DNA of 44,323 nucleotides from a virus: IMG/VR virus record IMGVR_UViG_3300020057_000415, positions 1 through 44,323 of that record; one strand, 5' to 3'. Each line of letters opens with the position of its first letter. Position 1 is the first letter of the stretch. Of this stretch, positions 6,620-44,260 are shown one piece after another. The position numbers and the translations under genes are program-made. The notes under the pieces were generated by a model that was not told the origin of the DNA, did no database searches, and saw only the letters and a program-made list of their open reading frames with translations.

Positions 6620-7141
6620 TTAGCAGCCGGTTGTAATGACGTTTTGGAATTCCGTCATGTGAGTAATGGTAATGGGGGGTCCGTCACTGTGCAATACCTC
6701 AGTGGTGAACAAAATGTTAGAAAGCTCATCCAGCGTGCACGCCAATCCTCTTGAGATGTCTCGACACACCCGCAATTGTAGATGCTGATTAGATCTATCG
6801 AATATGCTGTGTATGTTGGATGGATCTAGTGACATTTTTTTTGCGAGTCCGCGAATGCTGATGCCGCGCTCTTGCAGAAGTGCGTCACGCCTGTTAATGC
6901 GCTGACCATAGCCGAGGTCTAACAGAATGTGCGCTAAGTCTTCCAGGCTGACGCCCAATGTTTCCGCCAGCTTGGCATGCGCCGCAAGCGGTTTGAGTTT
7001 CGCGCCACCGCCGAGAATGCGACCGACTGTCATCCGGGGGCGATGAATTTTCAAAGCCAAAGCGGCAAAGTGTGGAACACCCTGCCGCTTCATGAGTGAA
7101 TAGATTCGTACGTCTACTGGTCGCTTACATACTCCAGGCAC
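6620..7141 (-). CDS. Tandem double-HTH (XRE-type) regulator
   Basis: A 173-residue protein made of two diverged copies of an XRE/Cro-like helix-turn-helix domain. The first (~residues 10-65) ends in LAETLGVSLEDLAHILLDL; the second (~85-145) contains RGISIRGLAKKMSLDPSNIH and ends in ISRGLACTLDELSNILF. Both share the family ending 'L..ISLDEL..IL'. The likely start is GTG 7141 (AGAGG ten bases upstream), since it supplies the first helix of domain 1; ATG 7093 would cut it. It overlaps the recombinase gene by 28 nt. Position beside the integrase makes it the best candidate for immunity repressor or lysis/lysogeny switch. A covalent two-domain HTH could bind an operator as a pseudo-dimer. Confidence 0.75.
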   Translation of the reverse strand: MPGVCKRPVDVRIYSLMKRQGVPHFAALALKIHRPRMTVGRILGGGAKLKPLAAHAKLAETLGVSLEDLAHILLDLGYGQRINRRDALLQERGISIRGLAKKMSLDPSNIHSIFDRSNQHLQLRVCRDISRGLACTLDELSNILFTTEVLHSDGPPITITHMTEFQNVITTGC

Positions 7142-8013
7142 AGCTGATCAACCTCTCGTCCTTCAAATAGGATATGCCGGACCGATGTCTGGGTCCATTG
7201 TCCAGAGAAGTTTCTGATGTACGGCTTGCGCCTTGGGCGCTTCAGTTCCTTCCCGGCCTTCGGTCCCCATTTTAAGGCATCTTTCTCCATTAGCGTATTT
7301 AGTTTTCTTGTGATTGCCATTTGGCTGCAGCCTGCCCACTTGTATAGGCGTCGGATATATCGAATAACCATTTGCTCTTCTGGCACTGGAACAAGCTTCA
7401 TCTTGAAGTCCAGCGGATCACACTGCGAGCGGTAACCAAATGGCAATCGGTGCCCAATCCAAGAGCCTCGCTCGGTCTTTGATGTTCGTGCATCCACAAG
7501 CCGCTTCGTGATGGTGTCCCTCTCCCACTCAGCGAACATTAGGTTCATCTGAAATGCGGCTTTACCGGTCGTGTCATCGTCGCTGATGTTTTGTTCGACG
7601 CTCCGGATGGACTTGCCGAGCTTCTTTAACCGCTTCCGCATTGTTTCGCCTTCGCCCAGGTCCCGGAAGTACCGGCTTATGTTCAGCACGACAATCGCCG
7701 AGGCATCGCATGACGTCACGCGACTAAAAACCGGTTTGCCTTTCTCGGATTCGAACGGTAGTCCTTGCAAGAAAGCTACTGCGGCTTCTAGCCCGGGACG
7801 CTTCGCTTCAGAGCCGCTCTCTACATCGGAGAAGACAGCCACTAGCCTTAAGTTGTTTTCGTCGCAATAGCGTTGAATGCGGTTGTACTGATCAGTAAGT
7901 GATTCGCCGTTTAAATCCTGTCCCGCCGTTGAAACTCGCAGATAGCCGATGACTTCATTCGACTGTACCAACTGAAGTGAGGCACTGGTGGCCATTTTTC
8001 GTCGTACTTGCAT
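7114..8013 (-). CDS. Serine recombinase (phage integrase candidate)
   Basis: A 299-residue recombinase. The N-terminal resolvase domain shows IGYLRVSTAGQD with the catalytic serine S28, then SDVESGSEAKRPGLEAA, LNISRYFRD and a GKAAFQMNLMFAEWERDTI helix, all typical of serine recombinases. A 'recombinase' domain follows (RGSWIGHRLPFGYRSQCDP to the WTQTSVRHIL end). Large serine integrases are usually over 450 residues with a zinc ribbon and coiled coil that grip the attachment site; those are missing, so this is a short form or truncated at the C-terminus. GGGAG precedes ATG 8013. It heads the leftward early operon and is translationally coupled to the HTH regulator. It probably integrates and excises the phage. 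Confidence 0.88.
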   Translation of the reverse strand: MQVRRKMATSASLQLVQSNEVIGYLRVSTAGQDLNGESLTDQYNRIQRYCDENNLRLVAVFSDVESGSEAKRPGLEAAVAFLQGLPFESEKGKPVFSRVTSCDASAIVVLNISRYFRDLGEGETMRKRLKKLGKSIRSVEQNISDDDTTGKAAFQMNLMFAEWERDTITKRLVDARTSKTERGSWIGHRLPFGYRSQCDPLDFKMKLVPVPEEQMVIRYIRRLYKWAGCSQMAITRKLNTLMEKDALKWGPKAGKELKRPRRKPYIRNFSGQWTQTSVRHILFEGREVDQLCLEYVSDQ

Positions 8014-8200: not shown

Positions 8201-8839
8201 ATGAAATTTGCAGTACTGAGCTTGGTCGTTTGTTTCTTGACCTTATCCCCTGCTGCTCAGGCTAGTGACGTGCGTGAGGAGCTGAGAAGAGCCGATGCAA
8301 AATTGCATCTATATGTGTACGCGGATGGCTTTGTGCGCGGTTACCTTTCGACAAACCTTGGTCCAGAATTACTGATGGATAAGCTCGATTCTGGAAGGGC
8401 AGATTTGGCGGACGTTTTGCAAGAGCAAGCAACCGCGCAAGCGAGGTTTGAATTTGATGAGGGCTTCTTAAAAGGAGCGCAGGATGCGCACGTTGAAGCT
8501 AATCTCGGTCGACGCTTGCGTTCACCCTGGGAGTGCGAATTGAAAGACCGGGACGCCCAAGTGCCGACCATTACCGGAGGTTTTGATAGTTTCACACGCG
8601 GAAGATACGGCCATCCTAAAGCGAATCGAGCAATTACTCCAAGGGAAGCGGCTCGGCTACAAGGGTTTCCAGACTGGTTCCGATTTCATGGAAACAAATC
8701 TGAAGTGCGTGCCCAGCTAGGAAATGCAGTACCAGTCCCGTTAGGCGAAGCCATTGGTAACAGCATCTTTCATCTCTTGCAAGTTCATGACGGGCTGGCC
8801 AAAGCCACTTCGAAGGATTTGAAGCGAGAGGAACTCTGA
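8201..8839 (+). CDS. Secreted-type protein fused to C-terminal DNA cytosine methyltransferase motifs
   Basis: A 212-residue chimera. Residues 1-21 are a signal peptide (MKFAVLSLVVCFLTLSPAAQ). Residues 27-103 hold a two-fold repeat (YVYADGFVRGYLSTNLG and FEFDEGFLKGAQDAHVEANL). Residues ~120-193 match the end of C5-cytosine methyltransferases: VPTITGGFDSFTRGRYGHP, motif IX-like ITPREAARLQGFPD and motif X-like QLGNAVPVPLGEAIG. The catalytic PC loop and cofactor motifs are absent, so it cannot methylate by itself. It is the only rightward gene in the first 38 kb and sits beside the integrase, the usual place for morons or for host DNA picked up around an attachment site. GAGGG precedes ATG 8201. 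It may be an exported moron product, a remnant, or a host-gene end captured near attP. Confidence 0.7.
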   Translation: MKFAVLSLVVCFLTLSPAAQASDVREELRRADAKLHLYVYADGFVRGYLSTNLGPELLMDKLDSGRADLADVLQEQATAQARFEFDEGFLKGAQDAHVEANLGRRLRSPWECELKDRDAQVPTITGGFDSFTRGRYGHPKANRAITPREAARLQGFPDWFRFHGNKSEVRAQLGNAVPVPLGEAIGNSIFHLLQVHDGLAKATSKDLKREEL

Positions 8840-10160: not shown

Positions 10161-10673
10161 CTATTTTAACGGCATGCTGCGCGCTGAAGCGTAGTCTTCG
10201 ATTTTGGTTATAAGGGCTGCACTTAGCCCTGCGGGTGGGTTTGCGGTTAGGCGCGCCCAATATGCTTTAAGCGCGGGAGGATAATTTACCAGCCGCAAAA
10301 GTGTCGAAGTTACGCGGTCCACCAAAGCGGTTGGGATTGCGCTATCGCTTGCAAGGTCCTGGATAAAACTGTCTACGTTTGGTGATGGCGGGATCGCTTC
10401 TCGACTTTTGACAAAATAACCGCTGCCGTTAACGTTAAGGCTGTACTCTTGCGCGATCATGTTGCCGTTTATCGCCACGAAGGGAAACCAACGGTCGGAG
10501 GGTTTCAGGTTCTCCGGCTTCGTGTAAACGATTTCGGGCTCTGGATTCGTGTCGTGAAACACTAATATCGGTTGCGTTCCGTCGAGGATTTGTGCTGACA
10601 CTGCTGACGGGAACGCCAGCACGAAAGCGATGATTACGATGATTTTCCTGATTTTCCTGATTTTCCTGATCAT
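10161..10673 (-). CDS. Exported hypothetical protein behind tail fibre
   Basis: A 170-residue protein with a signal peptide (basic IRKIRKIRK, then IIVIIAFVLAFPSAVSAQ). The basic part is coded by three exact 9-bp repeats (10642-10668). The mature part is unlike any family I know. Its start forms an ATGA overlap with the fibre gene's stop. It may be a fibre chaperone, a periplasmic lysis helper, or an exported virion-associated protein. Confidence 0.65.
   Translation of the reverse strand: MIRKIRKIRKIIVIIAFVLAFPSAVSAQILDGTQPILVFHDTNPEPEIVYTKPENLKPSDRWFPFVAINGNMIAQEYSLNVNGSGYFVKSREAIPPSPNVDSFIQDLASDSAIPTALVDRVTSTLLRLVNYPPALKAYWARLTANPPAGLSAALITKIEDYASARSMPLK
10642..10668. repeat. Three exact 9-bp tandem repeats
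   Basis: The unit ATTTTCCTG occurs three times without a gap inside the signal-peptide codons of the gene at 10161-10673, giving the repeated IRK tripeptide. Unit length keeps the frame. Confidence 0.9.
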
Positions 10674-13120
10674 GGTGCTGTCCTCACGTGCCAGACTACA
10701 GACTCAAGCGAAGTGGTGCCAGTGGCGCCCGCTGACGCTGCTACCGAGCCGTTAGCCCCTGCCGCACCACCGGTGACAGTGACTGTGCCAGAGTTGGTGA
10801 ACGTCGAACCATGCATCGCAATGTAACCACCACCACCGCCGCCGCCACCGCCGTTGCCAGCAGCCGCGCCGGCACCGCCTGCGCCACCGTTAGCTGATAC
10901 TGTGCGAGTGGTTTGAATAGTAACCGTCCCTAGACTGCGGATGTCGATTCCACCGCCAGAGCCGCCGCCACCGCCAGCTGAGCCTACGCCTCCTGTTCCT
11001 GCCGCACCAACGGCACCGGTTGCTGTTATGTTTGCGTCAATTGAGACGTTTCCAGTGGCTTCAACGTATAAGCTGCCACCGCCTGCGCCGCCCGCTGCGC
11101 CTGCCGCCGCAGAACCACAACCAGCACCACCACCGGAGCCTAGTAGTGACTGAAGAATGTCGTAAGTAGGACCACCGCGACCGCCGCGATCTCCTACGTT
11201 CGAACCCCCCTTACCGCCGACACCGCCGAACGATCCGCCACCACCGCCCAGGTTTGTGGCAGTGCTGTCTTGCGATGGTCCGGGTTCGCCACCGCCGGGT
11301 CCGCCGCCGCGTCCGCCAACTGCTATTGTCGTCGCTGGTCCGAGCCCGCCCGGCATTTCCGTGTTAATCGTAATTGCGTGAGTTAACGTTATCGTGCCAA
11401 CGACGTGCCACCGACAACGGTTGCACGTAATAACGTCAGTTGATGCCCAGTTGCCATAATGCCAGTATTCTCCGGTAAGCGTGCCGGACGTTGGTAGCGC
11501 GCGAACGCTAGTGCTACCGCCAGCGCCACCGAACATAGAGGCTCGCTGTGGTAGTTGTTCACCCGCTAACGACTGAAACGCTGGAGCTGCTGAACCGGAA
11601 GTGTTGTTACCAAAGACTGTGTATGCGGCTGCGTTGGTAAGCGCAAACGAAAGCGCTGGAGTGGTCGTAACAGTGGCTTCGGTTGTCGTGAAGAGCGGTG
11701 ACAGGTCGCCGGCTGAAAAGCTCGTTACTGTACCGGTGCCGCCGCTACCCCATTGCACGTTTGTCCCTGTGCCATCCATTTGGAGGCTTTGGTTGGCGGT
11801 CCCTTTAGCTAGCTTGCTCCAAGTGTTGGATGCTGCGCCTACCAGTAAATCGCCTGCTGTTGTCGTTGATTGTCCAGTGCCGCCGCCTGCTCCGGTGAGG
11901 ACATTGAACGCCGCTGTTCCGGCTCCTGCGCTGATCAGCGGCTGCCCCGATGTGCCAGCAGGCGTAAATATGATTTTGGTACCATCACCCTGAGCAATAC
12001 CGCCCGCGTTGGGAGTACCACTTTTTAGCGCAAAGTCTGCGTTTCCGTTCGCGTCATAGATGTTGTACGTGCGATCGCCGGCGCTGCCAGGATTGGCTGT
12101 GGTGATCAGGTAGTTGGCAGTGCTCTGGGTTATTGTGAGCGCTGGAGAGGAAGCACCAGTGATGGTGGCGCTGGTCAGCGTCTTGTTGGTTAGCGTCTGC
12201 GTCCCGGTCAGCGTGGCAACGCTATCGGTTGCGTTCGGAATAGTAACCGTAAGGCCAGTAGACGTAGTCAGCGTGTTCGTGCTGAGCTTCGGTGCCGCGG
12301 AAAACGTATAAGTCCCGGCAAGAGTTTGGGTGCCCTGGTCGAGCACAAGGTTGGCCGCGGTGGTCCCGTTGACCAAGGGAATCGTTATTGTCCCAGCACT
12401 CGCGCCCCAATCTGCCCACTTAAGGACAGCGTTGTTTGCTGATCCTTTGAGCGTTATGCCTGCCCCGCCATTCCACGAGAACGAGGGAGAGGTTAGCTCC
12501 TTGTTCGTTAAGGTCTGCACGCCAGTCAGCGTGGCTACAGTGCTGTCAATCGCAACGGTAGAAAGATTGGTGCCATTGGTGATGGTGATGCCGGTGCCAC
12601 CAGTCAGGACGTCGGCATTTGTCATAGTGCCATCAGCTACGCTGAGGATGAACTGAGCGCTAGCATTCGGGATGGATCCGCTTGAGCTCCATTGGATATC
12701 AGTGCCACCACCATTTACGGAGAGGATCTGGTTGGCCGAGCCTCTTGCGAGTCGAACCCAGTTAGCACCGTCGTACTTAACAATGTCGCCGGTCGCAGGT
12801 GTCGTCGGCATCAGGTTATTCAGTGCGGTTTGCTGCGTTGTCGCACCCGTTCCGCCGAACAGGATCGGTACCGTGGCAAGCTCCAGCACCCAGGAATTGC
12901 CGGGGCCGTTGTCTGTGATTGCGAACCGAGCCGTAGGCGCTAGGTAGCGCTCATTTTGCAACGTAGCGCTCGATCCAAGCGTCAGAAAGGACGCCAGCGG
13001 GTCCCAGTTCTGTGCGGAGTTCTGCGGAAATCCAAGCGGCAACGTGGCTGAATTTTGAGCTAGCGCCGCTTGGATGCAGAACAAAGATGCTAAAAACAGT
13101 AGGGATGTTAACTTTTTCAT
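10670..13120 (-). CDS. Tail fibre/adhesin with signal peptide and glycine-rich tip
   Basis: An 816-residue fibre. I prefer ATG 13120 because it gives a clean signal peptide (MKKLTSLLFLASLFCIQAAL, then AQ); ATG 13141 would add seven residues. The shaft has phage-fibre repeats such as VATLTGTQTLTNKTLTSATI and LTGVQTLTNKELTSPSFSWN. Residues ~590-790 are extremely glycine-rich (GGRGGGPGGG, GGGGGSGGGI, GGGGGGGGGY), with short beta segments between, resembling the polyglycine-sandwich receptor-binding tips of some phage adhesins. It probably recognises the host surface. The stop overlaps the next gene by 4 nt. Confidence 0.85.
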   Translation of the reverse strand: MKKLTSLLFLASLFCIQAALAQNSATLPLGFPQNSAQNWDPLASFLTLGSSATLQNERYLAPTARFAITDNGPGNSWVLELATVPILFGGTGATTQQTALNNLMPTTPATGDIVKYDGANWVRLARGSANQILSVNGGGTDIQWSSSGSIPNASAQFILSVADGTMTNADVLTGGTGITITNGTNLSTVAIDSTVATLTGVQTLTNKELTSPSFSWNGGAGITLKGSANNAVLKWADWGASAGTITIPLVNGTTAANLVLDQGTQTLAGTYTFSAAPKLSTNTLTTSTGLTVTIPNATDSVATLTGTQTLTNKTLTSATITGASSPALTITQSTANYLITTANPGSAGDRTYNIYDANGNADFALKSGTPNAGGIAQGDGTKIIFTPAGTSGQPLISAGAGTAAFNVLTGAGGGTGQSTTTAGDLLVGAASNTWSKLAKGTANQSLQMDGTGTNVQWGSGGTGTVTSFSAGDLSPLFTTTEATVTTTPALSFALTNAAAYTVFGNNTSGSAAPAFQSLAGEQLPQRASMFGGAGGSTSVRALPTSGTLTGEYWHYGNWASTDVITCNRCRWHVVGTITLTHAITINTEMPGGLGPATTIAVGGRGGGPGGGEPGPSQDSTATNLGGGGGSFGGVGGKGGSNVGDRGGRGGPTYDILQSLLGSGGGAGCGSAAAGAAGGAGGGSLYVEATGNVSIDANITATGAVGAAGTGGVGSAGGGGGSGGGIDIRSLGTVTIQTTRTVSANGGAGGAGAAAGNGGGGGGGGGYIAMHGSTFTNSGTVTVTGGAAGANGSVAASAGATGTTSLESVVWHVRTAP

Positions 13121-13121
13121 T

Positions 13122-13553
13122 TTATAAATCAGCGTTTGCATTGCCGTCGTACTTTTGAGCGCCGCCCATGTAGAAGTTATTTGCAGCAGCGGAGCCCTGG
13201 AAGAACAGTAGTGCCCCTTCAGGCGCCGTCACGCTGGCCGCTGAGTAAGGATCAACTGCAGTCTTCTGATATTCAGCAGCAACCGCGCCGAGGTGCACCC
13301 AGCCTTTAGCGCCAGCGCTTCCCTTAAAGACAGTGTCGCTCCAGTACCAGACGGTTATGTCCAGTGCCGCAGCGGCATCGTGAGCAAAACTGACTACGCC
13401 GCTGTGCCGCATCAAACCCATTGCGTTCGCGCGGTTTGGTCCACCAGTGAGCGCGTTAGGATCAGTTGTGCCGAGTGCTTTGGTAGCGGCAAATTGCTGG
13501 GGAAGTCTTCGGTTTAGAGTGTGCCCGACGTTGGAATGTACTCTTGTGCTCAT
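13122..13553 (-). CDS. Virion-module structural protein, unknown
   Basis: A 143-residue protein between the collar-type protein and the long fibre. It has a beta-rich look (ALDITVWYWSDTVFKGSAGA, GALLFFQGSAAANNFYMGGA) and no membrane segment or signal peptide, unlike its neighbours. The stop lies one base from the fibre's preferred start. Probably a fibre-attachment or minor tail protein by position. Confidence 0.7.
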   Translation of the reverse strand: MSTRVHSNVGHTLNRRLPQQFAATKALGTTDPNALTGGPNRANAMGLMRHSGVVSFAHDAAAALDITVWYWSDTVFKGSAGAKGWVHLGAVAAEYQKTAVDPYSAASVTAPEGALLFFQGSAAANNFYMGGAQKYDGNANADL

Positions 13554-13562
13554 CAGAAGGCC

Positions 13563-14375
13563 TCATGTTTTTTGGATTAGTGCCAGGGCGTAATATTTAG
13601 GCGTCACGGTTACACCAATCGCGGAGCCAGACTGCGCGGCCGGAGTTCCGCCAGTAGCGGCAAATACTGCGGGTGTACTTAGTGAAAGGCTGTGGACGTG
13701 GGTCGGACCGAGCCCGGCTCCGGCGCTGTTGTCGCCGGATGGACCGCCCGGTGATACCAAGCCCATTCCTCCAGTGGCAGCTGGTGACACGTTGCCAGCT
13801 CCGACAATGAATAGTCCCTGTAGGTTTGGCGTTCCGCTGGTGCCATCGCAAAGGTGATAACCACTTGGAATGGCAGCAATGGAGCCGGACCACATAAGGA
13901 TCCCGCCAGTAGGGATGCCACCAGATTCCCATGCGACGCCGTTGGCATTTGACGCTCGTGATGTGAGAACTTGCCCGTCAGTACCGACTGGTATCCGTGC
14001 CAAGTTAGCCGCGTATCCAAGCAGGTCGCCCTTGGTTGTTAAGGCAGTCGTGTTAGCTATCGCACTTAACTTCCAGCCTGGAGTCGTGGTGCTATCAAAC
14101 TGCAGGACTTTGTTGTTGTCCGCAGCACCAGCATTGGTGATTGCTGCATAGTTAGTACCGTCGAATGAAAGTAGGTAGCCCTTCGCACTGAGCAGATTCA
14201 GCGTTCCAATGACGTTGGTGTTGTAGTGCGCGATGAAGTTACCAAACTCGTTATTCCAGTCCGACGCCTGAACGACGTAACCGGTCGCCCGAGTCGTGAA
14301 CCCGGTGTAAGTCGCTATCGCATAGCAAGGGATTGCTATCAGGAATAGCGCCAGAACCAGATATAGTTTTTTCAT
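13563..14375 (-). CDS. Tail-collar-domain fibre with signal peptide
   Basis: A 270-residue protein that starts with a signal peptide (MKKLYLVLALFLIAIPCYA). The C-terminal part contains the phage tail-collar pattern GGILMWSGSIAAIPSGYHLC followed by DGTSGTPNLQGLFIVGAGN, then a glycine-rich stretch with THVHSLSLSTP, as found at the ends of short tail fibres. The N-terminal part has fibre-like ALTTKGDLLGYAANLARIPV. Its start overlaps the nozzle-like gene's stop by ATGA. Confidence 0.82.
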   Translation of the reverse strand: MKKLYLVLALFLIAIPCYAIATYTGFTTRATGYVVQASDWNNEFGNFIAHYNTNVIGTLNLLSAKGYLLSFDGTNYAAITNAGAADNNKVLQFDSTTTPGWKLSAIANTTALTTKGDLLGYAANLARIPVGTDGQVLTSRASNANGVAWESGGIPTGGILMWSGSIAAIPSGYHLCDGTSGTPNLQGLFIVGAGNVSPAATGGMGLVSPGGPSGDNSAGAGLGPTHVHSLSLSTPAVFAATGGTPAAQSGSAIGVTVTPKYYALALIQKT

Positions 14376-16990
14376 CGTGCGTAACCTCCACCACTGAGCG
14401 TATAAGCGAGTCCGTAGTAATCCAAGGCGTCGTCCGCTGAGCTGGAAATCAGTTCGACTTCCCAGAACTGTCCGTTGCCCGCTGGATTGAAGTCCAAAGG
14501 TTTGATGTGCTCCGACGGAAAAGCAGACAGTCCAAGCTGCCAGCTCCCGAGAGCCGTCTGCGCTACGATTGCGCCTGTGAGCGTAGCCTGCGGAGGCCTC
14601 GCTGCGATCTTTCTGAAGCCGCCACCTGATACCCGCTGATAAACGTTCGCGCGGATCTGACAGTGCTGATCACCGCCATCGGTGATGACAGTAATGTTGT
14701 GCATGCTCGCCGTCTGCGATGGGTTGCCCACCGTGATCAATGCCGACGTCATCTGCAGAATGATCGGGGTGGTGTCATGCAGCTTGCCGCTATACCAGGT
14801 CTGAAGCAGCCCGTCATAGCCGCCACCGTACTGAACGGATTTGAAGATGAACGAACAGGCTACAGATGTCCCGTCACGGGTGCTCCAGATTGGCTTGATG
14901 TTGCCGACTGCACTTTCGTCGTTGTTGTAATTGAGAACCAGTGCGTGTTTGCAAAGCCCGCCGTCACCAAGCATGGGGAGCCAGAACCAGATTTCTTGCG
15001 TCTTTGAGTGGTGGACTACGTGAGCCTTGTCCCAGTAGTCCTCATCGATCTGGTTGATCAGATCCTGAATAATGAAGCTCAGGCTGTTGGATGCCATCAC
15101 TGCGTTAGCTAGCAGTGACGAGAATGTTTTGATGCCGGCAGTGGAGAGAAATATCAGCTCATTGCCGAACTTGGCATAAGCGCGATTGCTCGGGATGCCA
15201 AATTCTTGCGTCAGAATATGCAGGGCAAAGGTGCTGGCTCCGTTCCCGTCAATGATGAAGATGCCGTTCAGGCAGCCGCCGATTATGATCTGGTCGTTGT
15301 TCTGGTTGTTCAGCTGGTGGACGCGAATTGATCTTAACGGACCGAGCTCCGGCGAATAGGTGAAGCTGCCGCCATCGGTTTGCTGCTGTGGTGCATTCGT
15401 CTCAAAAGACTCAGGGTTGCCCGCTTTTGAGATGAGAATATCGAATGCGGTGCTTGCATCAGGAAAGCCCCCGAACACTGCGCGATCCCCAAAGATCTCG
15501 CAGAACTTAGGCGTGTTGTAGCTCTTGCTGTTGAACTGCACCGGCCAAGCTGTGGTTGATGAAGCTGCAGCCAGCGTGACCGTCGCCGTGTTAGTGCTTG
15601 TTCCGACCGCAAGGGTCAGAGTGAATCCGGTGACAGTCCGGCTCCAGGTGATGGACCCAAGGCTGGACGGAGACGTGATTGTAATGACGGCAGCGTTTGA
15701 AGTCGCAACGATGCCGGCAGCTGCATAAGCGTAGTGACTGTTGATAGCCGCTGCCAATGCTGCTGCCACTGTAGTAGTGGTGTCGCCAGTGACAGCTGTA
15801 TAGGTTGCTGTAGCAGTCCCACCGGAGCCGACGCCAACAGCTAGCACGACCGTCGCGCCACCGCTGGATGACTGGGCAAAGACGACGGCTGCGGCTGCAG
15901 GATAACTGATAGTGACCACGTTGGTCGCAGCGATCGCGGTGATGCCGGCAGCTGCTAATCTCGGATTTGCGTTGATAAGCGCAGCCAGCCCGGTCGCCAC
16001 CGTGGTGGTGGTTTCAGCTGCGCCGTAGGTGTAGGTGATACTCTCTTGCCCGGTCGTTGGAATTGCCGCACTTGTGAGCTGCACGGTCGCCGTGTTGGCC
16101 ACGGTTGTGGAGCCACCGATGGTAGCTGTCTCTGTCGCGGTCACCGGAACGGCAGCAGTGATGGTTCCAATGTTGCCAGCAGCAACTGCTCCGCCGATTG
16201 TGGCGGTCTCGAGATTCTGCCCAGTCGAGAAAGTTATATTCAGGCTTCCTGGGTACGTGATTGACACCACGGGTCCGGACGAGGATGCCTTAACTCCGGC
16301 AGCCAGCAGCGTCGTGTTGGCGGTTATTGCAGCAGCCAGTCCGGCTGCAACCTTGTTAAGAGTGTCGCCAGCAACGACCGTATAGGACACACTGACGAGG
16401 TTGTTCAAAAAGGACGGGCTATTGAACGTTACCGAGGCAATGCTGCCGATACCCACAGTGCCACCAATTGTGGCGGTCTGCACGCTGAGACCATCGGTCC
16501 ACGATAGTGAAGTCGCAACTGTGGGACTGGTGATTTTGATCGGCTGTGAGACGCCGTTGCAGTAGATCGTGATTGCCTTGCCTGATACAGGCGAATAGAA
16601 TCCGCGCATGCAGGGCAAAGCTGTGGTGCTCAAGCCAGCTTGAAGTTCCGTCTCTGTCTGTGTCGTGGTGTTGTAGCTGTACAGCTTACTTCCGGCTTGA
16701 AAGAGCAGGGTCTGTACGCCAGCATTGTCGGTGTACTTACCGAAGTCCAGGAAGCCAGCGCCGCCGTTAAAGCTGCCCGCTCTCTGTCTGGTCCAGCCGA
16801 TACCTCTAGTGGTCCACACTCCGCGCACAAACATGTGCAGGTTGTTAAGCACTCGGCATTGATCCGCGCCGCGCTCAAGGCTGGCCACGTTCGTCGCCAG
16901 CCCGCCCTTCGCCGTGAGTAATCCAGCCTGGAGGGATTTACCCATTTGGCTGAGCGGCGTTTGCGAAACAGGTGCGCGGCTGTCCGTCAT
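14372..16990 (-). CDS. Tail nozzle-like protein with inserted repeat domains
   Basis: An 872-residue protein. The outer parts resemble the beta-propeller tail proteins of podoviruses (T7 gp12 or P22 gp10 type): ERGADQCRVLNNLHMFVRG at the N-terminus, and later FGDRAVFGGFPDAS, NELIFLSTAGIKTFSSL and HHSKTQEIWFWLPM. Between residues ~165 and ~480 there are at least three copies of a different beta domain, marked by YTVVAGDTLNKVAAGLAAAI, YGAAETTTTVATGLAALINA and YTAVTGDTTTTVAAALAAAI, with TATIGG repeats. Such repeats are common in fibres and unusual inside a nozzle. The start shares a base with the upstream stop (TAATG). The exact homology class is not settled from sequence alone. Confidence 0.72.
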   Translation of the reverse strand: MTDSRAPVSQTPLSQMGKSLQAGLLTAKGGLATNVASLERGADQCRVLNNLHMFVRGVWTTRGIGWTRQRAGSFNGGAGFLDFGKYTDNAGVQTLLFQAGSKLYSYNTTTQTETELQAGLSTTALPCMRGFYSPVSGKAITIYCNGVSQPIKITSPTVATSLSWTDGLSVQTATIGGTVGIGSIASVTFNSPSFLNNLVSVSYTVVAGDTLNKVAAGLAAAITANTTLLAAGVKASSSGPVVSITYPGSLNITFSTGQNLETATIGGAVAAGNIGTITAAVPVTATETATIGGSTTVANTATVQLTSAAIPTTGQESITYTYGAAETTTTVATGLAALINANPRLAAAGITAIAATNVVTISYPAAAAVVFAQSSSGGATVVLAVGVGSGGTATATYTAVTGDTTTTVAAALAAAINSHYAYAAAGIVATSNAAVITITSPSSLGSITWSRTVTGFTLTLAVGTSTNTATVTLAAASSTTAWPVQFNSKSYNTPKFCEIFGDRAVFGGFPDASTAFDILISKAGNPESFETNAPQQQTDGGSFTYSPELGPLRSIRVHQLNNQNNDQIIIGGCLNGIFIIDGNGASTFALHILTQEFGIPSNRAYAKFGNELIFLSTAGIKTFSSLLANAVMASNSLSFIIQDLINQIDEDYWDKAHVVHHSKTQEIWFWLPMLGDGGLCKHALVLNYNNDESAVGNIKPIWSTRDGTSVACSFIFKSVQYGGGYDGLLQTWYSGKLHDTTPIILQMTSALITVGNPSQTASMHNITVITDGGDQHCQIRANVYQRVSGGGFRKIAARPPQATLTGAIVAQTALGSWQLGLSAFPSEHIKPLDFNPAGNGQFWEVELISSSADDALDYYGLAYTLSGGGYAR

Positions 16991-17784
16991 TAGTCGATCA
17001 CCGCACCGTTATCGTCAACTGATCGTGGGCTGTTATAGCCTCGATTGCTCCGTCTTCGACTAGGGAGCCTCATCATGCGGAATGCTCTATTCGCATCCGC
17101 CAATCTGCCGGCAACCAGTTTTACTTCGTTGGCGGCTTGTGCAGCCATTCCAGAGATACTGCCTTCCTTGCCTTCACCGAGTCCGCGCTCAACAAGGTCC
17201 CATGCGAATTCCCACAGGACATGCTCGTATTCCGGCGGCCAGAGAAGAACGCTGGTTGCGTTTGCTAGCGGGTACGCGTTCAGGGCTGCCTGATATTCCA
17301 GCTTGTAGTTTTGATCAGGGTTTGGATAGATACGAACCTTATGCACTGGTGATTCTTCGGTCCGGTCGATCGGCAGTAGAATCCAGTGAGATGGAGCACC
17401 CGTAGTGATTTTGCTTGGATCAGGGAAGTCCGCCATAAAATTGGCGTACTCGTAGTACCTCAGCGGTCGATTTTGCGCAGCAGCGGTTCCGGTCGTGATG
17501 TTGAAGAACCGCTCCGGGCGTATGTGCTCGGGGTTCATGCCGGTGTCCAGCGGATAGACAGACGTGCCTAAGGTAATAGGAAGCTCAATGCGCCTGGTGG
17601 CGAAGTGCTTGTACGCGCGGACAGACAGATGCAAGTGCGCGAGCTTGATGTAAGCCCGCGCTGCTCGCTGTGGTTTGCTTAGGACGCCGGTGGGATTGTT
17701 GAAGTCGTTAGCGCTCGCAATCGGATCGATTTGCGATAGCTCTAGGACCTCATTGGTCGCCGTCATCCAAGTACTGTTCGCCAT
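16990..17784 (-). CDS. Head-tail adaptor / tail tubular-A-like protein
   Basis: A 264-residue protein with the composition and order typical of podovirus adaptor (T7 gp11, P22 gp4-like) proteins: an N-terminal helical region (TNEVLELSQIDPI), a central beta section with PLRYYEYANFMADFPDPS and VHKVRIYPNPDQNYKLEYQA, and a long C-terminal helix (AAQAANEVKLVAGRLADANR). It lies directly before the nozzle-like gene. The family call rests on position and general pattern. Confidence 0.65.
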   Translation of the reverse strand: MANSTWMTATNEVLELSQIDPIASANDFNNPTGVLSKPQRAARAYIKLAHLHLSVRAYKHFATRRIELPITLGTSVYPLDTGMNPEHIRPERFFNITTGTAAAQNRPLRYYEYANFMADFPDPSKITTGAPSHWILLPIDRTEESPVHKVRIYPNPDQNYKLEYQAALNAYPLANATSVLLWPPEYEHVLWEFAWDLVERGLGEGKEGSISGMAAQAANEVKLVAGRLADANRAFRMMRLPSRRRSNRGYNSPRSVDDNGAVID

Positions 17785-17796
17785 ACGACCTCATTC

Positions 17797-18450
17797 TTAG
17801 AAGTCGGTTGGTTCAAACTCGACTGTCACACAAACGCCTTTCGCCGCGGCACCTTGAGTACCTGCGCTGTATTCGCAATAGACCGATTGGGTGGCGGTCA
17901 CTGCAAGGTCTGCGCCGGTAGCGGTCAGGGTCGCAACTTGTCCGGTGTTGGCGGTGGCTCCGTTCAAAGAGACTGAGGCGGCGTTAAGCATGGTGTTGCC
18001 AACGCTTGATGCCTTCAGAACTTTGATGGTGTTGGTGCCAGATATCGGATCCACTTCAGTCGCGTAGGTGACAGCTTTCACTATCCCTGCTCTTCCGAAG
18101 AAGAGCGATTGAGAATAGACAGTGGCGTTAGCCGCGGTGCTAGTATTCGGGGCAAGCAGCGCCCTGATTGTTTGGCGCTTAGCGCTGCCAGTTTGGATGT
18201 TGGCTGCAGTCAAAGGAGTGGTTAGGGTTACCGCTCCAGTGACGCCCAGGGTGCCACCAACGGCAACGTTGCCACTGTTGGTTACAGTGCCCGTGTTAGT
18301 TACAGCGCCGGTGTGAGTGCTGGTACCGGTAACCACTAAGTTACCGGTGACCGTCAGATGATTCTTAAGCTTGCTGACCGTGACCTGGGCTGCTTCCGAT
18401 GGAAGCACCAGGCACATGGACGCAAGAAGGACAAGCAGAATCCGTTTCAT
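17797..18450 (-). CDS. Virion fibre/decoration protein with signal peptide
   Basis: A 217-residue protein located immediately after the major capsid gene. Residues 1-21 are a signal peptide (MKRILLVLLASMCLVLPSEA). Residues ~30-80 are a stalk-like beta repeat (LVVTGTSTHTGAVTNTG, TVTNSGNVAVGGTLGVTGAV) as seen in trimeric phage fibres, followed by a compact C-terminal domain. Probably a capsid or neck fibre; the signal peptide is unexpected there. Confidence 0.7.
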   Translation of the reverse strand: MKRILLVLLASMCLVLPSEAAQVTVSKLKNHLTVTGNLVVTGTSTHTGAVTNTGTVTNSGNVAVGGTLGVTGAVTLTTPLTAANIQTGSAKRQTIRALLAPNTSTAANATVYSQSLFFGRAGIVKAVTYATEVDPISGTNTIKVLKASSVGNTMLNAASVSLNGATANTGQVATLTATGADLAVTATQSVYCEYSAGTQGAAAKGVCVTVEFEPTDF

Positions 18451-18452: not shown

Positions 18453-19391
18453 TTATGCGAGTCCTTTGCTGCCGACCCAGCCTCTCCAGTCATGCCAGAC
18501 GATGCCGTAGCTGTCTTTGCACTGGTGGAGAACGCAGAGTGAGTTCTGGTCATCACGCATCCATGTCTCTGGCTCTTCGCGCTCATAGAACACGTTTTCT
18601 GCCATGGAGATGTCGCGTACGTACCATTGAGTCTGGTTAAACGCCGTCGGAGCTTCAGCAAGCAAAGGCAAGCTGACTACTTCAACGTCGTACTCGCCGA
18701 ACTGACCGCTGTACACGTTGACAGCGTTGTTCATCGTTTCTGGCTCGTGTGAGCTGCCTACGATTTGAAGCGCTTGCCGTGTGTTGTACGGAGGTACGAC
18801 GAGCTGCAGCTTCGCCAAGTCGGATGGAAGAACGTCGCCGTTCTCATCGACCATGGTGAGCATTTTGGTCACAGCCTGGTCAAAGCTGTCGGTGTTGAGC
18901 GCGGCGGTGAGCAAGTTGTCACCGGAGGCAAACGGTCCGATTGGATTGACGAGAGTGTGTGAGCCGCTGAATACAGGCTGACCGTCCGGTGAAGTCACCG
19001 CAGCGAATCCGCCGTGGATGAACGTCATCGCGTCCTTGTACCGCTTGCGCTGCATGGCCTTACCGAGACCGAATGCACCCTTCTCAATTTCAGGGTAACG
19101 GTTGTCCCGCATGTACTCGTGGGAGATCTTGATCTCACCAGTGAGCGTGTCAGGAACGACGTAGCTGTTGTAACCACGTCTGACCGTCAAGCGATTGAGC
19201 GGAGCGCCTTCCTTGGTGATGGCGACAACAGACGGGTGCACGAATTGATCTACTTCAACCCGGCGCTTGTCGGTCTTCTCCATGCGATAGACGCGCTGCC
19301 ATTTAGTGGCGTTTTTGAAACCGAGTCCAACCGTCTCTTTGAGGTTGTCCTCCATTTCGAGGATAAATTGGTCTCTTAATACGATAGACAC
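18453..19391 (-). CDS. Major capsid protein
   Basis: A 312-residue protein, best candidate for the HK97-fold major capsid protein. It has a long N-terminal helix region, GPL/EK-type extended segments, the DGQPVFSGSHTLVNPIGPF motif typical of Mu gpT-like capsid proteins, LQLVVPPYNTRQALQIVGSS, and a C-terminal beta section ending in CKDSYGIVWHDWRGWVG. It lies behind the scaffold candidate and another structural protein, in the usual head-gene order. Confidence 0.78.
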   Translation of the reverse strand: MSIVLRDQFILEMEDNLKETVGLGFKNATKWQRVYRMEKTDKRRVEVDQFVHPSVVAITKEGAPLNRLTVRRGYNSYVVPDTLTGEIKISHEYMRDNRYPEIEKGAFGLGKAMQRKRYKDAMTFIHGGFAAVTSPDGQPVFSGSHTLVNPIGPFASGDNLLTAALNTDSFDQAVTKMLTMVDENGDVLPSDLAKLQLVVPPYNTRQALQIVGSSHEPETMNNAVNVYSGQFGEYDVEVVSLPLLAEAPTAFNQTQWYVRDISMAENVFYEREEPETWMRDDQNSLCVLHQCKDSYGIVWHDWRGWVGSKGLA

Positions 19392-25509: not shown

Positions 25510-28500
25510 CTAGGTTTTCTGCTTCGGAAAAATGGATCCAAAGATCGTCGGCCCAGCTTTTTCGCGTCGCTTCTCTTTGATGAAAGCGGCAGCACGTGGA
25601 GACTTGCCGGGCAAAGTGGAATTCATGACAGCATCGAATGGTCCGAAGCCTTGGAATTTTTTACGACCAAGCAGGCTGTTGCCGCCAAGTAGACCCTGCG
25701 CTGGATTGGCTGCATGAGCATATACAGTCTCTTCTCCAGCCTGCGCATTCTGTGCTTGCCCGACCATGCGTCCCATTTGCGCACCACCACCACCGAGGAT
25801 CACGGACAGTCCCATGAGGAGCGCAATCTTTCCAACCTTGTCCCACTTCCGTCCTGCAAGCGCTTGCCCGAGGCTTTCTACTTGGGTCACTATCAGGTTA
25901 GCTTGAGCACCGCTGAGCAGTGGCAACAGGTCAACTTTCATCTTATCGACGAGGTCTCGCCCGATTATGTGCGAAATCGGGTTGTAATCGTCCAGCACGT
26001 CTTGCACTGTATATAGCAGCGCTCTTGTTTCAGCGGTGCCGTACTCCATCGCCCATTCAAGCTCTTTGTTGATGGCACTACGTCCGGCGAACAAGGCCTG
26101 CGCAGTCAGGAATGTGCCGATCGCACCGTAATTTCCTTCTGAAGACCATTGCTTGAGCAGCCTAGCCACGCGGTAAGGCTGGGATGCAAACTGAACGACA
26201 TAGCGCATAGCTGGATTTGCCTGGATGGGATCCTTGTCGAGCCCCATCGAGCCTGTGCCGGTGATGTCCATGGTGGATTGCAAGGCTTCTACATAGCCCT
26301 TAACGGTCTCATCCAGGGACAGCTTACTGTTGGCCATGTCGCGGAGGTACTGCTCTCCACCGCCCTTGTATTTGATTTTGTCGCCCTGGTGCATGATGGA
26401 TGCCGCAAGGCTGTCCTGAAAGTTCCAGGACTCGGACGGCAGGTCTGGGAGCTTCCCGCGGAAGTCCTTGAGTGCGTTCTTTGTTTTGCCGTACAGCGTT
26501 TCTTCAATGCCCTTGGCTGGTGGTCCACTCAGTCTGGAAGTCTCTGCGCGTAGTTCACCCAAAGGACCTTTTGCTTCATGACTGCGGATGAAGTTTTGAA
26601 CGCCCTTGTCCGTCTGCAGGAGGTACTTAGCTTTCACGATATTCATGAAGCCAGCGCGAGCACTGCCCACTACCAGTGGATCCAGTAAGTTCAGCGCATG
26701 GTAGGGAACGTTCCACTTGAACACGTAGTCATACAGCGCGTTCGTGATGTAGCGTCCGGCCTGACCGAACGTGTTGACGCCCTCAGTCGAACTAGCACCA
26801 GTCAAGGCTCTATGCAAGTCGTTCAGCACGTCTAGTGTGTGCTTGGCGCTTCCAGGTATGCTGGTCGGATCTCCGTAGTATTCGACGATCTTGTCCATGT
26901 CAGCTTTGACGTTCTTCGCGGATTCCTGACGGATGGCGCGTCTAGTGGCTAAGTAGTTCCGTTGCTTTGAATCGAATACATTTAGCCCGTCTGCCCCTGT
27001 GCGAATAGCTTCCGGCGTCATGGTCAGGGATTTATCAACAAGGAACTCCTGCGAGGGGTCGAACTTGAGGCCCCGGCCGAAGATGGTTTCTTTTGCGATG
27101 CCTTCCCAGATTTTTTTATGAAGGTCAGCGCTGTGATCCTTCACAATGTCGAGCGTTCTGCGCAGCGTGAATAAGCGGCTGATTACATCGGCATCCTGTG
27201 CAAAGTCTTTGACCTTGTCACTCTTGAGCGCTCCCTCTGCAATGGCTTCGGTAGCTGGATCAACCTTGCTGCCGAACGCTTTCTGTACTCCGGCTTCGAT
27301 GTCGGCCGTTGTGTATCGCTTGCCCAGTTTCGCTTTTGGTATCAACGGTCCAAGCACTGAAGCCTGCGATATACCAGACGGCTGGAAGGATTTCAGAAAC
27401 GTCTTGATGCCTGTGATCAGGTGATTGACTTCTTCTCGCTTCGGTACGTGCTGCTTGTCACGGACTGCGTTGGCTTCTGTCTCTAGCGGGCTACGTTGTT
27501 TCGGAACCGCGCGAATATTTACATCACCCTGAATGTGAGGGATGTTCACGGAGGATGGAATCTCACCGGATTCCATGCCGGATTGGAGACGAGGGACTAC
27601 CGTATCTCGAGCAGCCTGATATTTTTTGTTTGTCGCTTGAAGCTTCATGTACGCGTCATGAACTTTCTGCGCGGCCAGCATTTGATCGCTGGGCAGTTTC
27701 ACTGGCTCGGCTTGGTACTTCTTGCCGTTCTGCACTTCAAGCTGAACGTTCTCCGGCCGCTCGGCAAGCGCTTCTGCGGACATGCGTTCGATTTCTTCGA
27801 TGTACCGTGCGTCGTACCGGGTGTTCTTCGCTGCTGTGAGCTGGTCCTGTGGAATCAGTTTCAATTGCTGGAAGGACTCGTGAGCCGCGCGAAAGTCGGC
27901 CTCAGCCTGGTCCCGCTCGTGCTTCGCTTCGGCTAGCTTACCCAGCTGTGTCCGCGTTTCTGGAGCTACGGTATCTGGAATCGCTTGTCCGTTCTCCATG
28001 ACTTGCGCCCGAAAGTCGTCAGGCGTTTCTGCCTGCGGCTGAGGCTGGTGTCCTTTGGTCGCCTTGGTGGTTCCAGCGTTCAGATTATCTGAAACAGCCT
28101 GAGCCTGCCCCAGCGTTCTCTTGCTGCTGCTCTTGATCGCTCCAGTTTCGGTGTCGATGATCTCGTGATAGCCGGCCTTAGCTTTGGCGGGGTCAGCACT
28201 TCGTTGTGCTATGTAGCGCGGTTGTCCTTCCGCTTGTCCAGAAGTCTCCGGCGCTGCTGGCTGTTCTGGGGCTTTGGATATATCTTGATGACTTGACGCT
28301 TGGTTCGGATCAAAGCCTTCAAATGGTTGCATCTGACTAGGCACGATCTCGCCTGGTTGCGGCACGGAGGATTGTCCAAGACCGCGCGGCTCGGTGTTGC
28401 CTGCTGGCTGCTGATCAACCATCGAGCGTCGAGCGATCTCGCCGGTTACGTCCGGACTCGGTCCCATACCTTCAGCCCATACTTGCGGCTGCGGCTCTGC

Positions 28501-30126
28501 GTGGCTCGGTCCGGCAACAACAGCATCCTCTGTGATCGCGTTGATGATGGCTTGCTTAACGTCCGCCGGCGTCGTTGGATCTGCCAGCGCTTCTGTGATT
28601 TCTTCGTGCGACATTTGATTGCCGCCCACGTTCAAGCGACTGCGCTCCGGTGTAAGTGAGCGAGCTCCAGGCAGACCTCGATCCACTGCAGCTTGATCAA
28701 CGCTCAGAATGTCTCTATTGGCGGCGTCCACTTCTCCAGTAGGAGCCGCTGCGCCTGTTGCGATCTGCTGATCACGGGCATTGAGCGCAGCGTGAACTTT
28801 GTCTTTGAACTTCTGCGGCGTGTTTGGATCGGCTAGACGGTCATGCGCAACATCGACGTGCACTTTGTGTCCGTCAACTTCGATGTGATCCGGTACGTCG
28901 CCTACAGGGTTTCGTGCTGTAGCGTTCTTCTCGCTGGCGGCTTTTGCCGCATTACCTTTGTTCACCATAATGCCATGCGCGGCGCCGAACATTGCGCCGG
29001 CGGCCATGGAATCTACTCCGGCCTTCAATGCTGGTTGTGCGTGAAGTCCTTTGATCTTGCCTGTCTTAGCTTGCTCTCGTTGACGTTCCGAAGCTTGTTC
29101 CGCTAGATTGCTTTCCGCGCCATACAGAGCTGCGTTGATAACACCCTCTGCCATTTTCTGGGCAAATGGTACTTTCTTCATGACGCCGAGCGTGACGCCT
29201 GGAATCTTCCCGGTGGCGCCGAGCCCTAGCTGACCGAGTGTCTGCCCTACGCCAGCGTTTGCAGGATAGGCTTTCAGCAGCGGATCAAAAGGCCTTTGGA
29301 TAGCTTCCTTCACTGCTACTGGCTTGTTCTCGTCGCGCCCTGCTAGAACGTTCAGAGTGCGCGTACCCATGTCGATAGATTTGCGAATGCCCGCAGTGAA
29401 GTCAATAGGGCTGTCTGGAATCTGTCCCGCTTGTTGCTGCCTGGTGAGCTGGTTGCTCAGGTTCACTGCACCCTGCGGAATATCCACAATGCCTGGAATG
29501 ATATTGGCCAGCATTGCTAGCAGTGCTTCAGGTCCATGCCGTCCGATTTCTTCACCAGCGCGTTCAGCATCGCCGAGCACTGGAATATGGCTGATCAGCT
29601 CACCGCCCTTATTCACAAAATTTTCAGCGGTCGCCTTAAGACTGTGACCCAATCCGGCAATGTTCTCGCCTACTTTCTGCGCTGGTGTTCGTGGCTCACC
29701 AAGCTCCAATGGAAGCGGTTTGTTTGGTACGCGGAATGGTGGCGTTCCGTGAGCAACGGGCAGTGCGGTCGGCGCTGCAGCAGTTGGTGCTGCTGGCTGC
29801 GCAAACAGCGAATCGTAGGGGTTAGCTGGTTGCGCGGGCTGTGGCTGCTGTTCAAACAGCGCGTCATACGGATTGCTTGCTCCCTGTTGCGGCATCGCAG
29901 CAAGAGCACCCGTAGGCACGGGCATTGGTGGCGGTGGTGGGATCATTTGGTTCTTTGGATTTGCCACTAGATCGTAGGGGTTAGCTGGTTGCGCGGGCTG
30001 TGGCTGCTGTTCAAACAGCGCGTCATACGGATTGCTTGCTCCCTGTTGCGGCATCGCAGCAAGAGCACCCGTAGGCACGGGCATTGGTGGCGGTGGTGGG
30101 ATCATTTGGTTCTTTGGATTTGCCAC
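25510..30126 (-). CDS. Giant internal virion/ejection-type protein
   Basis: A 1538-residue protein, the largest of the genome. It begins with proline-rich repeats (two copies of a 53-residue block), then Ala/Gly-rich amphipathic segments (~130-360), charged coiled-coil regions (~680-870), and a long helical C-terminal half (e.g. YDYVFKWNVPYHALNLLDPL and a hydrophobic VGKIALLMGLSVILGGGGA near the end). Size, amphipathic helices and position among other low-complexity virion proteins fit a DNA-ejection (internal core) protein. I see no transglycosylase or protease motif. GTG 30126 has AAGGGG upstream and overlaps the previous stop by one base (TAGTG). Confidence 0.72.
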   Translation of the reverse strand: MANPKNQMIPPPPPMPVPTGALAAMPQQGASNPYDALFEQQPQPAQPANPYDLVANPKNQMIPPPPPMPVPTGALAAMPQQGASNPYDALFEQQPQPAQPANPYDSLFAQPAAPTAAAPTALPVAHGTPPFRVPNKPLPLELGEPRTPAQKVGENIAGLGHSLKATAENFVNKGGELISHIPVLGDAERAGEEIGRHGPEALLAMLANIIPGIVDIPQGAVNLSNQLTRQQQAGQIPDSPIDFTAGIRKSIDMGTRTLNVLAGRDENKPVAVKEAIQRPFDPLLKAYPANAGVGQTLGQLGLGATGKIPGVTLGVMKKVPFAQKMAEGVINAALYGAESNLAEQASERQREQAKTGKIKGLHAQPALKAGVDSMAAGAMFGAAHGIMVNKGNAAKAASEKNATARNPVGDVPDHIEVDGHKVHVDVAHDRLADPNTPQKFKDKVHAALNARDQQIATGAAAPTGEVDAANRDILSVDQAAVDRGLPGARSLTPERSRLNVGGNQMSHEEITEALADPTTPADVKQAIINAITEDAVVAGPSHAEPQPQVWAEGMGPSPDVTGEIARRSMVDQQPAGNTEPRGLGQSSVPQPGEIVPSQMQPFEGFDPNQASSHQDISKAPEQPAAPETSGQAEGQPRYIAQRSADPAKAKAGYHEIIDTETGAIKSSSKRTLGQAQAVSDNLNAGTTKATKGHQPQPQAETPDDFRAQVMENGQAIPDTVAPETRTQLGKLAEAKHERDQAEADFRAAHESFQQLKLIPQDQLTAAKNTRYDARYIEEIERMSAEALAERPENVQLEVQNGKKYQAEPVKLPSDQMLAAQKVHDAYMKLQATNKKYQAARDTVVPRLQSGMESGEIPSSVNIPHIQGDVNIRAVPKQRSPLETEANAVRDKQHVPKREEVNHLITGIKTFLKSFQPSGISQASVLGPLIPKAKLGKRYTTADIEAGVQKAFGSKVDPATEAIAEGALKSDKVKDFAQDADVISRLFTLRRTLDIVKDHSADLHKKIWEGIAKETIFGRGLKFDPSQEFLVDKSLTMTPEAIRTGADGLNVFDSKQRNYLATRRAIRQESAKNVKADMDKIVEYYGDPTSIPGSAKHTLDVLNDLHRALTGASSTEGVNTFGQAGRYITNALYDYVFKWNVPYHALNLLDPLVVGSARAGFMNIVKAKYLLQTDKGVQNFIRSHEAKGPLGELRAETSRLSGPPAKGIEETLYGKTKNALKDFRGKLPDLPSESWNFQDSLAASIMHQGDKIKYKGGGEQYLRDMANSKLSLDETVKGYVEALQSTMDITGTGSMGLDKDPIQANPAMRYVVQFASQPYRVARLLKQWSSEGNYGAIGTFLTAQALFAGRSAINKELEWAMEYGTAETRALLYTVQDVLDDYNPISHIIGRDLVDKMKVDLLPLLSGAQANLIVTQVESLGQALAGRKWDKVGKIALLMGLSVILGGGGAQMGRMVGQAQNAQAGEETVYAHAANPAQGLLGGNSLLGRKKFQGFGPFDAVMNSTLPGKSPRAAAFIKEKRREKAGPTIFGSIFPKQKT

Positions 30127-30129
30127 TAG
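29812..30129. repeat. Two exact 159-bp tandem copies
   Basis: Copies 29812-29970 and 29971-30129 appear identical and keep the frame (53 codons). They code for the block NPKNQMIPPPPPMPVPTGAL and following residues. The unit includes the gene's own GTG start, so copy one carries a former start codon as an internal valine. Confidence 0.93.
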
Positions 30130-35339: not shown

Positions 35340-35476
35340 AAGTTCTCCGCAGGTGTGTCTGCAATTACTACGCCTGCCTTCACACTCTCCGTGATTTCGT
35401 GCGCAATAGAGCACAGGGTGGTGCTGAGTATCAATGTCACCAGAATTATGGTGACTGCTTTATCGGTGCCACTCAT
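35336..35476 (-). CDS. 46-residue single-span membrane protein next to patatin
   Basis: A short gene coupled on both sides by 4-nt ATGA overlaps: its ATG (35476) overlaps the patatin stop, and its TGA overlaps the next start. The product begins MSGTDKAVTIILVTLILSTT and continues LCSIAHEITESVKAGVV, giving one membrane span at ~8-24 and a short outside or inside tail. It may be a membrane partner of the phospholipase, a holin/spanin-like or exclusion peptide. The double coupling makes it very likely real. Confidence 0.7.
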   Translation of the reverse strand: MSGTDKAVTIILVTLILSTTLCSIAHEITESVKAGVVIADTPAENL

Positions 35477-38842: not shown

Positions 38843-38907
38843 TTGGCATTCCGAACTGGCTGATTGCGCTGCTTGGTTGCGAAGTGGCTATAGGACTCGA
38901 TTTTTAA
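38839..38907 (+). CDS. 22-residue hydrophobic micro-ORF
   Basis: [20 protein letters not shown] plus two residues, coupled to the previous gene by ATGA and ending just before the AAAGG site of the pentapeptide gene. It could be a membrane micropeptide or simply a coupling leader. Confidence 0.4.
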
Positions 38908-43814: not shown

Positions 43815-44013
43815 CTGGATCTCCCTGCGGGGAATTATCCGTATATGATACCGCCTTCTTCTTTCGAAGGTACTTCCGTGAAGCTCGGCTTCCAGCTTGT
43901 TTCCCCTGGTCGCTTTGCATGTAGACCTGTTGACGGGTCCGCCGGCACCGGGGGCACTCCCCCGGACCTTTGGCGTGTCCTTTCTGACATTCGTTAGATA
44001 AAGGCCTTCCCAT
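43750..44013 (-). CDS. Small zinc-binding protein
   Basis: An 87-residue protein with NECQKGHAKGPGECPRCRRT, a Cys/His cluster, and a basic helical region (SRASRKYLRKKKAVSYTDN). GGAGG lies upstream of ATG 44013. It overlaps the following gene by 65 nt and the preceding one by 20 nt. Resembles small phage zinc/HNH-associated proteins, but no HNH core is seen. Confidence 0.62.
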   Translation of the reverse strand: MGRPLSNECQKGHAKGPGECPRCRRTRQQVYMQSDQGKQAGSRASRKYLRKKKAVSYTDNSPQGDPDGCHQERALPQNVIQSAGQDS

Positions 44014-44260
44014 TGCCCCTCCTCAGCAACAAGTAGAGCAGCGCGTACTTCACAGTCGCAGCTGCAATCTCCTTCAATCGTTGTTTCGTTGTTTTGGGCT
44101 CTTCTTTGTATCCGTGGATGGTCATTACGACCGGTGGATCCGGAGGCTGCACTATCGCCAGCTGCTGATCTGTTTCCGTGGCTACGTAGCTAAGGTCTAT
44201 GGCTTGGGCGGGGCAAGTTAGTAGCAGTGTCGTTGCTAGGCAGATTGATAACTTGCGCAT
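43994..44260 (-). CDS. Small exported/membrane protein
   Basis: An 88-residue protein with a signal peptide (MRKLSICLATTLLLTCPAQA), a polar middle, and a second hydrophobic segment near the C-terminus (TVKYALLYLLLRR). LTCPAQ contains a cysteine but not a clear lipobox. It overlaps the CopG-like gene by about 71 nt in another frame. Its first 70 bases occur again at 1-70 in the redundant end, where residue 22 is Asn instead of Asp. Function unknown. Confidence 0.65.
   Translation of the reverse strand: MRKLSICLATTLLLTCPAQAIDLSYVATETDQQLAIVQPPDPPVVMTIHGYKEEPKTTKQRLKEIAAATVKYALLYLLLRRGNGKAFI

Follow-up and report, generated by a model that had tools for sequence, protein, structure and literature searches.

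In the prevailing view, the particles of tailed phages are completed in the cytoplasm. Filamentous phages build differently, their coat proteins being structural proteins that carry signal peptides and are exported before assembly. In these phages assembly is linked to secretion (PMC4823517) and the whole virion is assembled in the membrane; they are not tailed phages. Here we describe six genes that open with signal-peptide leaders in a virus record of 44,323 nucleotides (nt), IMG/VR record IMGVR_UViG_3300020057_000415 (hereafter the window, meaning the whole stretch), four of which lie among its fibre genes. The occurrence of leader-bearing fibres in this phage and in an unrelated clade of podoviruses suggests that such fibres complete their maturation outside the cytoplasm and are added to the particle no earlier than cell lysis. 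Our search of open PubMed Central (PMC) papers found no report of Sec leaders on tailed-phage fibres, which is a weak negative.

Several described systems share part of this arrangement. The signal-peptide and signal-arrest-release (SAR) endolysins of podoviruses, such as JG068 gp47 (PMC3765740) and that of UFJF_PfDIW6 (PMC8951688), are likewise late phage proteins sent through Sec by an N-terminal signal; however, they act on the cell wall in lysis and are not virion parts. Lom of phage lambda is an exported protein encoded between tail genes (PMC12309495) and resembles the leader-bearing fibres in both respects, yet it is an outer-membrane beta-barrel and not a fibre. Disulfide bonds within a tailed-phage virion, which we propose for the fibres of the clade, have been described in Agrobacterium phage Milano, where they lie in the sheath and baseplate; no export is described in that paper, and the term periplasm is absent from its text (PMC10811340). 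Ordinary collar-type or nozzle-attached fibres (7z47, 8vbx and that of Pseudomonas phage Pa193, 9b45) are alike in fibre domains, motifs and position behind the nozzle gene. They differ in that we found no report of a signal peptide on them, and in that leaderless relatives are without a conserved cysteine pair.

The virion module of the window lies on the minus strand and looks complete, with terminase, portal, scaffold, capsid, adaptor, an 872-amino-acid (aa) protein in the nozzle position, fibres and lysis genes. A home-made scorer built on the n-h-c model of signal peptides was applied to all open reading frames (ORFs) of the window; in calibration on 19 Escherichia coli signal peptides, 18 scored 6.4-8.8 and one was missed. 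The genes that pass are as follows:

17797..18450, minus strand: 217-aa fibre-like protein directly behind the capsid gene; leader MKRILLVLLASMCLVLPSEA at 18391-18450, score 7.2
13563..14375, minus strand: 270-aa collar-type tail fibre behind the nozzle gene; leader MKKLYLVLALFLIAIPCYA at about 14319-14375, score 8.8
10670..13141, minus strand: long glycine-rich fibre of about 816-823 aa; leader MKKLTSLLFLASLFCIQAALA, at 13058-13120 if the start is 13120, score 8.1-8.2 with either start
10161..10673, minus strand: 170-aa protein behind the long fibre; leader MIRKIRKIRKIIVIIAFVLAFPSAVSA at 10593-10673, score 8.7
8201..8839, plus strand: gene outside the virion cluster, on the opposite strand; leader MKFAVLSLVVCFLTLSPAAQA, score 8.3
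43994..44260, minus strand: 88-aa protein far from the virion cluster, with no significant family; leader MRKLSICLATTLLLTCPAQA, score 8.1

These six genes score 7.2-8.8, every other ORF of the window scores 6.7 or less, and they are precisely the six that an initial annotation, made from the sequence alone, had named: it had read canonical leaders on the four genes within 10161-18450 and similar ones at 8201 and 44260. Each of the four has a basic n-region, a hydrophobic h-region and a c-region with an AxA-type end, which is the architecture of a Sec/signal peptidase I substrate. Shuffled N-termini exceed the cut in 0.5% of cases at 7.0 and 0.2% at 7.5, so that the chance expectation is well below one among some 58 genes, against six observed. 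Within the virion module the scorer finds leaders on fibre-type genes only; the portal gene has none, nor have the following genes, which served as controls:

18453..19391, minus strand: major capsid protein (Mu gpT-like; PF10124, 1.5e-5)
16990..17784, minus strand: SU10-type tail adaptor (PF24175, 2.5e-8)
14372..16990, minus strand: 872-aa protein in the tail nozzle position, placed there by a gene order like that of the clade, with no family match
13122..13553, minus strand: 143-aa protein between two fibres

The collar protein has the domains and the tail-cluster position of a tail fibre, matching PHROG tail-collar families (4.9e-13 and 8.5e-12) and, weakly, Pfam Collar. The long fibre and the 217-aa protein are fibre-like by composition and position, with no significant family match; for the former, tblastn gave a weak match covering 9% of the query, in a part of an uncultured phage that carries no annotation, and database searches with the latter gave none. 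A family search with the 170-aa protein was likewise without a match.

Could the leaders come from miscalled genes or from stretches that are hydrophobic by chance? In favour of this are the home-made nature of the scorer and the uncertainty of start codons in high-GC contigs. Nevertheless, the starts of two of the genes are fixed by 4-nt overlaps with the preceding stop (ATG of the collar fibre at 14375 with the nozzle stop at 14372, and the 170-aa start at 10673 with the long-fibre stop at 10670). Such junctions speak for the leader ATG as the true start. Two nucleotides separate the 217-aa gene from the capsid stop, and AAAGGA lies upstream of its start. For the long fibre the start is probably 13120 (MKKLTSLL...) rather than 13141; it sits just past the stop of the upstream gene and drops seven residues before MKKLTSLL, leaving a clean leader. 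Given also the base rates in shuffled N-termini and in other phages, and the leaderless core genes described below, we rejected an error in gene starts as the source of the leaders and regard artefact or chance as very improbable.

For the comparison with relatives that the initial annotation had recommended, searches with the capsid, portal, terminase, collar fibre, long fibre and 217-aa protein brought up nothing near the window phage. The relatives that tblastn returned from GenBank phages were all distant, for the capsid (22-27% identity) as for the collar core. The GenBank collar-fibre kin whose starts were read open with mature-type sequence and have no leader. Leaders were also scarce elsewhere: a degenerate scan with the window capsid family retrieved 80 loci that hold distant relatives of this capsid, and 2 of their 857 ORFs pass the threshold, neither of them fibre-like. 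Overall the trait is thus uncommon, a leader being something added to known fibre types. No further members of the N-terminal motif of the window collar protein were found in the fetched loci. Bradyrhizobium phage ppBjS10J-1 has a fibre that shares a stretch with a leader-bearing one, yet it has no leaders; none was found in StenR_269, and MW202637 gave two scorer hits. Among 80 IMG/VR loci retrieved with the window collar core a single collar fibre bears a leader, that of locus L094, where two neighbouring genes have leaders as well; one of these two is glycine-rich, as is the long fibre of the window.

A capsid search with L094 led to a clade of soil-type podoviruses, present in IMG/VR and in Pseudomonadota genomes, with at least 210 candidate contigs, of which 80 were fetched. 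The window phage was considered as a member of this clade and rejected, its capsid, terminase, adaptor, nozzle and scaffold showing no relation by blastp and hhalign and its portal giving a weak match. In the clade, leaders are absent from all 291 genes of eight core clusters, namely capsid (0/58), scaffold (0/52), portal (0/46), nozzle (0/42), adaptor (0/39), terminase (0/30) and two putative internal virion proteins (0/24). The main fibre cluster has a leader in 17 of 27 members, and fibre-type genes behind the nozzle or between portal and scaffold are often leader-bearing, with several different fibres per genome. A leader gene lies within 5 kb behind the nozzle in 24 of the 29 loci with enough sequence. 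Of 50 loci in which the leader ATG was compared with the nozzle stop, 30 show an overlap of exactly 4 nt, the same junction as at 14375 in the window, and in 39 the ATG falls within 60 nt of the stop. PHROG matches of the leader proteins are mostly to tail and tail-fibre families, and their Pfam domains are Collar, S74, Gp53-like, lectin-like and glycine-rich. A profile of the clade fibre matches the solved tail fibres 7z47 and 8vbx, and an AlphaFold model of the mature region of one leader protein (mean predicted local distance difference test score, pLDDT, 81) matches the Pa193 baseplate and tail-fibre entry (9b45) with an E-value of 4.5e-4.

Whether these leaders are working export signals may be judged from how they vary. 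We aligned 63 clade fibres on a conserved cysteine, an anchor independent of AxA, and found alanine at position -1 in 56 and at -3 in 44, with -2 mixed. Leader identity is 25% (22% in the h-region, against 15.5% expected from composition) versus 63% in the first 45 mature residues. A drifting leader in which the -1 and -3 alanines are kept is, as read from these alignments, the mark of selection for signal peptidase and not for a binding surface. Even cysteine counts are typical of exported disulfide-bonded proteins. The number is even in 59 of the 66 dereplicated mature leader proteins that contain any cysteine, compared with 76 of 166 core virion proteins (p=2e-10); passage through the periplasm fits because the cysteines of the mature proteins are paired. 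The fibre N-terminal domain LPFNLTNGTTADASQVMANYNA occurs both with and without a leader. A flanking cysteine pair is found in 63 members, all with leader (52 flagged by the scorer and 11 read by eye); 10 leaderless members all lack the pair, and 10 others have a leader and no pair (Fisher, 7.6e-8). On the tree of this domain the leader state changes about nine times, at least three of them on supported branches. That the clade leaders would act as Sec/signal peptidase I signals, and hence that the clade would export these proteins, is well supported.

The same features bear on a second explanation, by which uncleaved leaders would act at the N-terminus as hydrophobic anchors or would seed trimers, as the initial annotation had already suggested; they might in addition hold assembly at the inner membrane. 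Such a role would agree with the cytoplasmic assembly of known tailed phages, and a hydrophobic N-terminus of 18 residues without an AxA site does occur on the capsid and scaffold proteins of Paraburkholderia prophages. However, leader sequences that are nearly unconserved around a kept -1/-3 alanine pattern, together with cysteine pairing that goes along with the leader, speak against it, and we consider retention improbable.

The reading that we prefer, and hold with some reserve to be the probable one, is Sec export, cleavage by signal peptidase I, folding in the periplasm and docking to tails at or after lysis. The fibre proteins would be made late, their leaders acting as Sec-type signal peptides; once in the Gram-negative periplasm they would be trimmed by signal peptidase I, folded and trimerised, with disulfide bonds in the leader-bearing clade. 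Assembly of capsids, portals, adaptors and nozzles would meanwhile follow the usual cytoplasmic route. Once the envelope is ruptured by holin and endolysin, the pools of fibres and particles would mix and each fibre would attach to the tail nozzle by its mature N-terminal domain, so that the virion would be completed at or after lysis. Tailspikes of phage P22 add to finished heads in vitro, which makes late addition of fibres reasonable. For the window phage we infer export from its own leaders and by analogy to the clade. Export with addition during or after lysis, one of the options in the initial annotation, is thus favoured by the clade data, the window contributing its leaders and the step at lysis being what the model would add.

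A signal peptide on a phage protein normally marks an envelope protein, and a third explanation is that the leader proteins are exported without becoming virion parts, serving in the periplasm or at the surface of the infected or lysogenic cell in receptor masking, superinfection block or debris binding. Lom, with its signal peptide and its place between tail genes, offers a precedent (PMC12309495), and some clade leader proteins are enzymes, for example a GH18 hydrolase. Against this, in several genomes, L136 and L161 among them, every recognisable fibre has a leader, so that a virion without any fibre would result unless the exported proteins are its fibres. Furthermore, in other clade members the gene that directly follows the nozzle is the same but leaderless, and the leader proteins carry Collar, Gp53-like and S74 domains. 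We consider a purely non-virion role unlikely, though deserving of attention. Coating of the cell surface had also been put forward at the outset; because the same fibre gene behind the nozzle occurs leaderless in other members, the clade comparison leans away from it and towards addition at lysis.

Of course, several observations weigh against the preferred model. Some clade members (L098, L127 and L171) have fibres without leaders, so a fibre of this type does not in itself require export. The core genes of the window phage have no detectable relation to those of the leader-bearing clade. The association of cysteine pair and leader is not phylogenetically independent; only two to three contrasts are well supported, and these all run in the expected direction and are too few for significance. 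Finally, the four virion-cluster leader proteins of the window have 2, 1, 3 and 0 cysteines, which is not consistently even (the 217-aa protein has its two in the mature part), and the disulfide argument is therefore restricted to the L094 clade.

It is tempting to speculate more widely that some tailed phages split virion assembly over two compartments, sending fibres through Sec (a few perhaps through Tat) to fold with disulfide bonds in the periplasm and joining them at lysis to particles made in the cytoplasm, in two lineages without detectable core relation and with repeated gain and loss in one. We judge this general proposition evenly balanced between true and false. If it is true, exported disulfide-bonded fibres would add a second assembly compartment to the prevailing view, the host Sec and Dsb systems would have a role in phage infectivity, fibres could coat cells or debris ahead of release, and fibre stability in soil would have a simple explanation. 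One study took the absence of leaders on phage diversity-generating retroelement (DGR) proteins as support for phage origin (PMC6199706); by the same sign, phage fibres that have leaders might be mistaken in annotation for adhesins of the host.

Clade contigs are binned to Acetobacteraceae, Burkholderiales and Methylococcaceae, and the clade also occurs in Paraburkholderia and Glaciimonas isolates; further matches in metagenome-assembled genomes labelled Elusimicrobia, Eremiobacterota and Micrarchaeota may be binning errors. Being Gram-negative, the principal hosts possess a periplasm. In the Burkholderiales contig L178 one fibre has both a leader and the cysteine pair. Paraburkholderia tropica LMG 22274, in which a clade element is integrated and encodes a glycine-rich fibre with a leader (L183:7147-8388), is a tractable system. 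In the Paraburkholderia members, capsid and scaffold share the extra 18-residue hydrophobic N-terminus (LLGLLFPGV) mentioned above, which other clade capsids lack; a similar extension is present on the capsid protein of L182. The genes concerned are:

L181:9950, L183:9950, L184:9950 and L182:2843: capsid genes with the hydrophobic extension
L181:9196, L183:9170 and L184:9189: scaffold genes with the hydrophobic extension

Three clade proteins have twin-arginine leaders, which makes Tat export of phage proteins possible as judged by motif: SRRRFLLGS in the GH18 hydrolase coded between portal and scaffold (L161:5467-6915), SRRGFVSG in L163:13335-14201 and TRRKLLAA in L143:6764-9031.

Outside the virion cluster of the window, the product of 8201..8839 continues after its leader with a part of no recognised family and then the C-terminal end of a C5-cytosine methyltransferase (PF00145, 5.5e-18, residues 132-190); lying on the strand opposite to its neighbours, it would be either a fusion or a decayed gene. 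Close to it is a gene that suggests a temperate phage:

7114-8013, minus strand: serine resolvase (PF00239, 4.8e-24)

The genome also encodes a patatin-like phospholipase (35473-36300, minus strand; PF01734, 9.5e-22). A 1538-aa protein (25510-30126, minus strand) opens with about 53 residues repeated almost exactly in tandem (VANPKNQMIPPPPPMPVPTGALAAMPQQGASNPYDALFEQQ...), and the adjoining gene, for a 422-aa protein (30126-31394, minus strand), has internal tandem copies TSEGNQALRARGIAVNEGRLAQI and PMQPQAGPGPMADPA. Pentapeptide-type repeats, about 20 units, are encoded at 38877-39707 on the plus strand.

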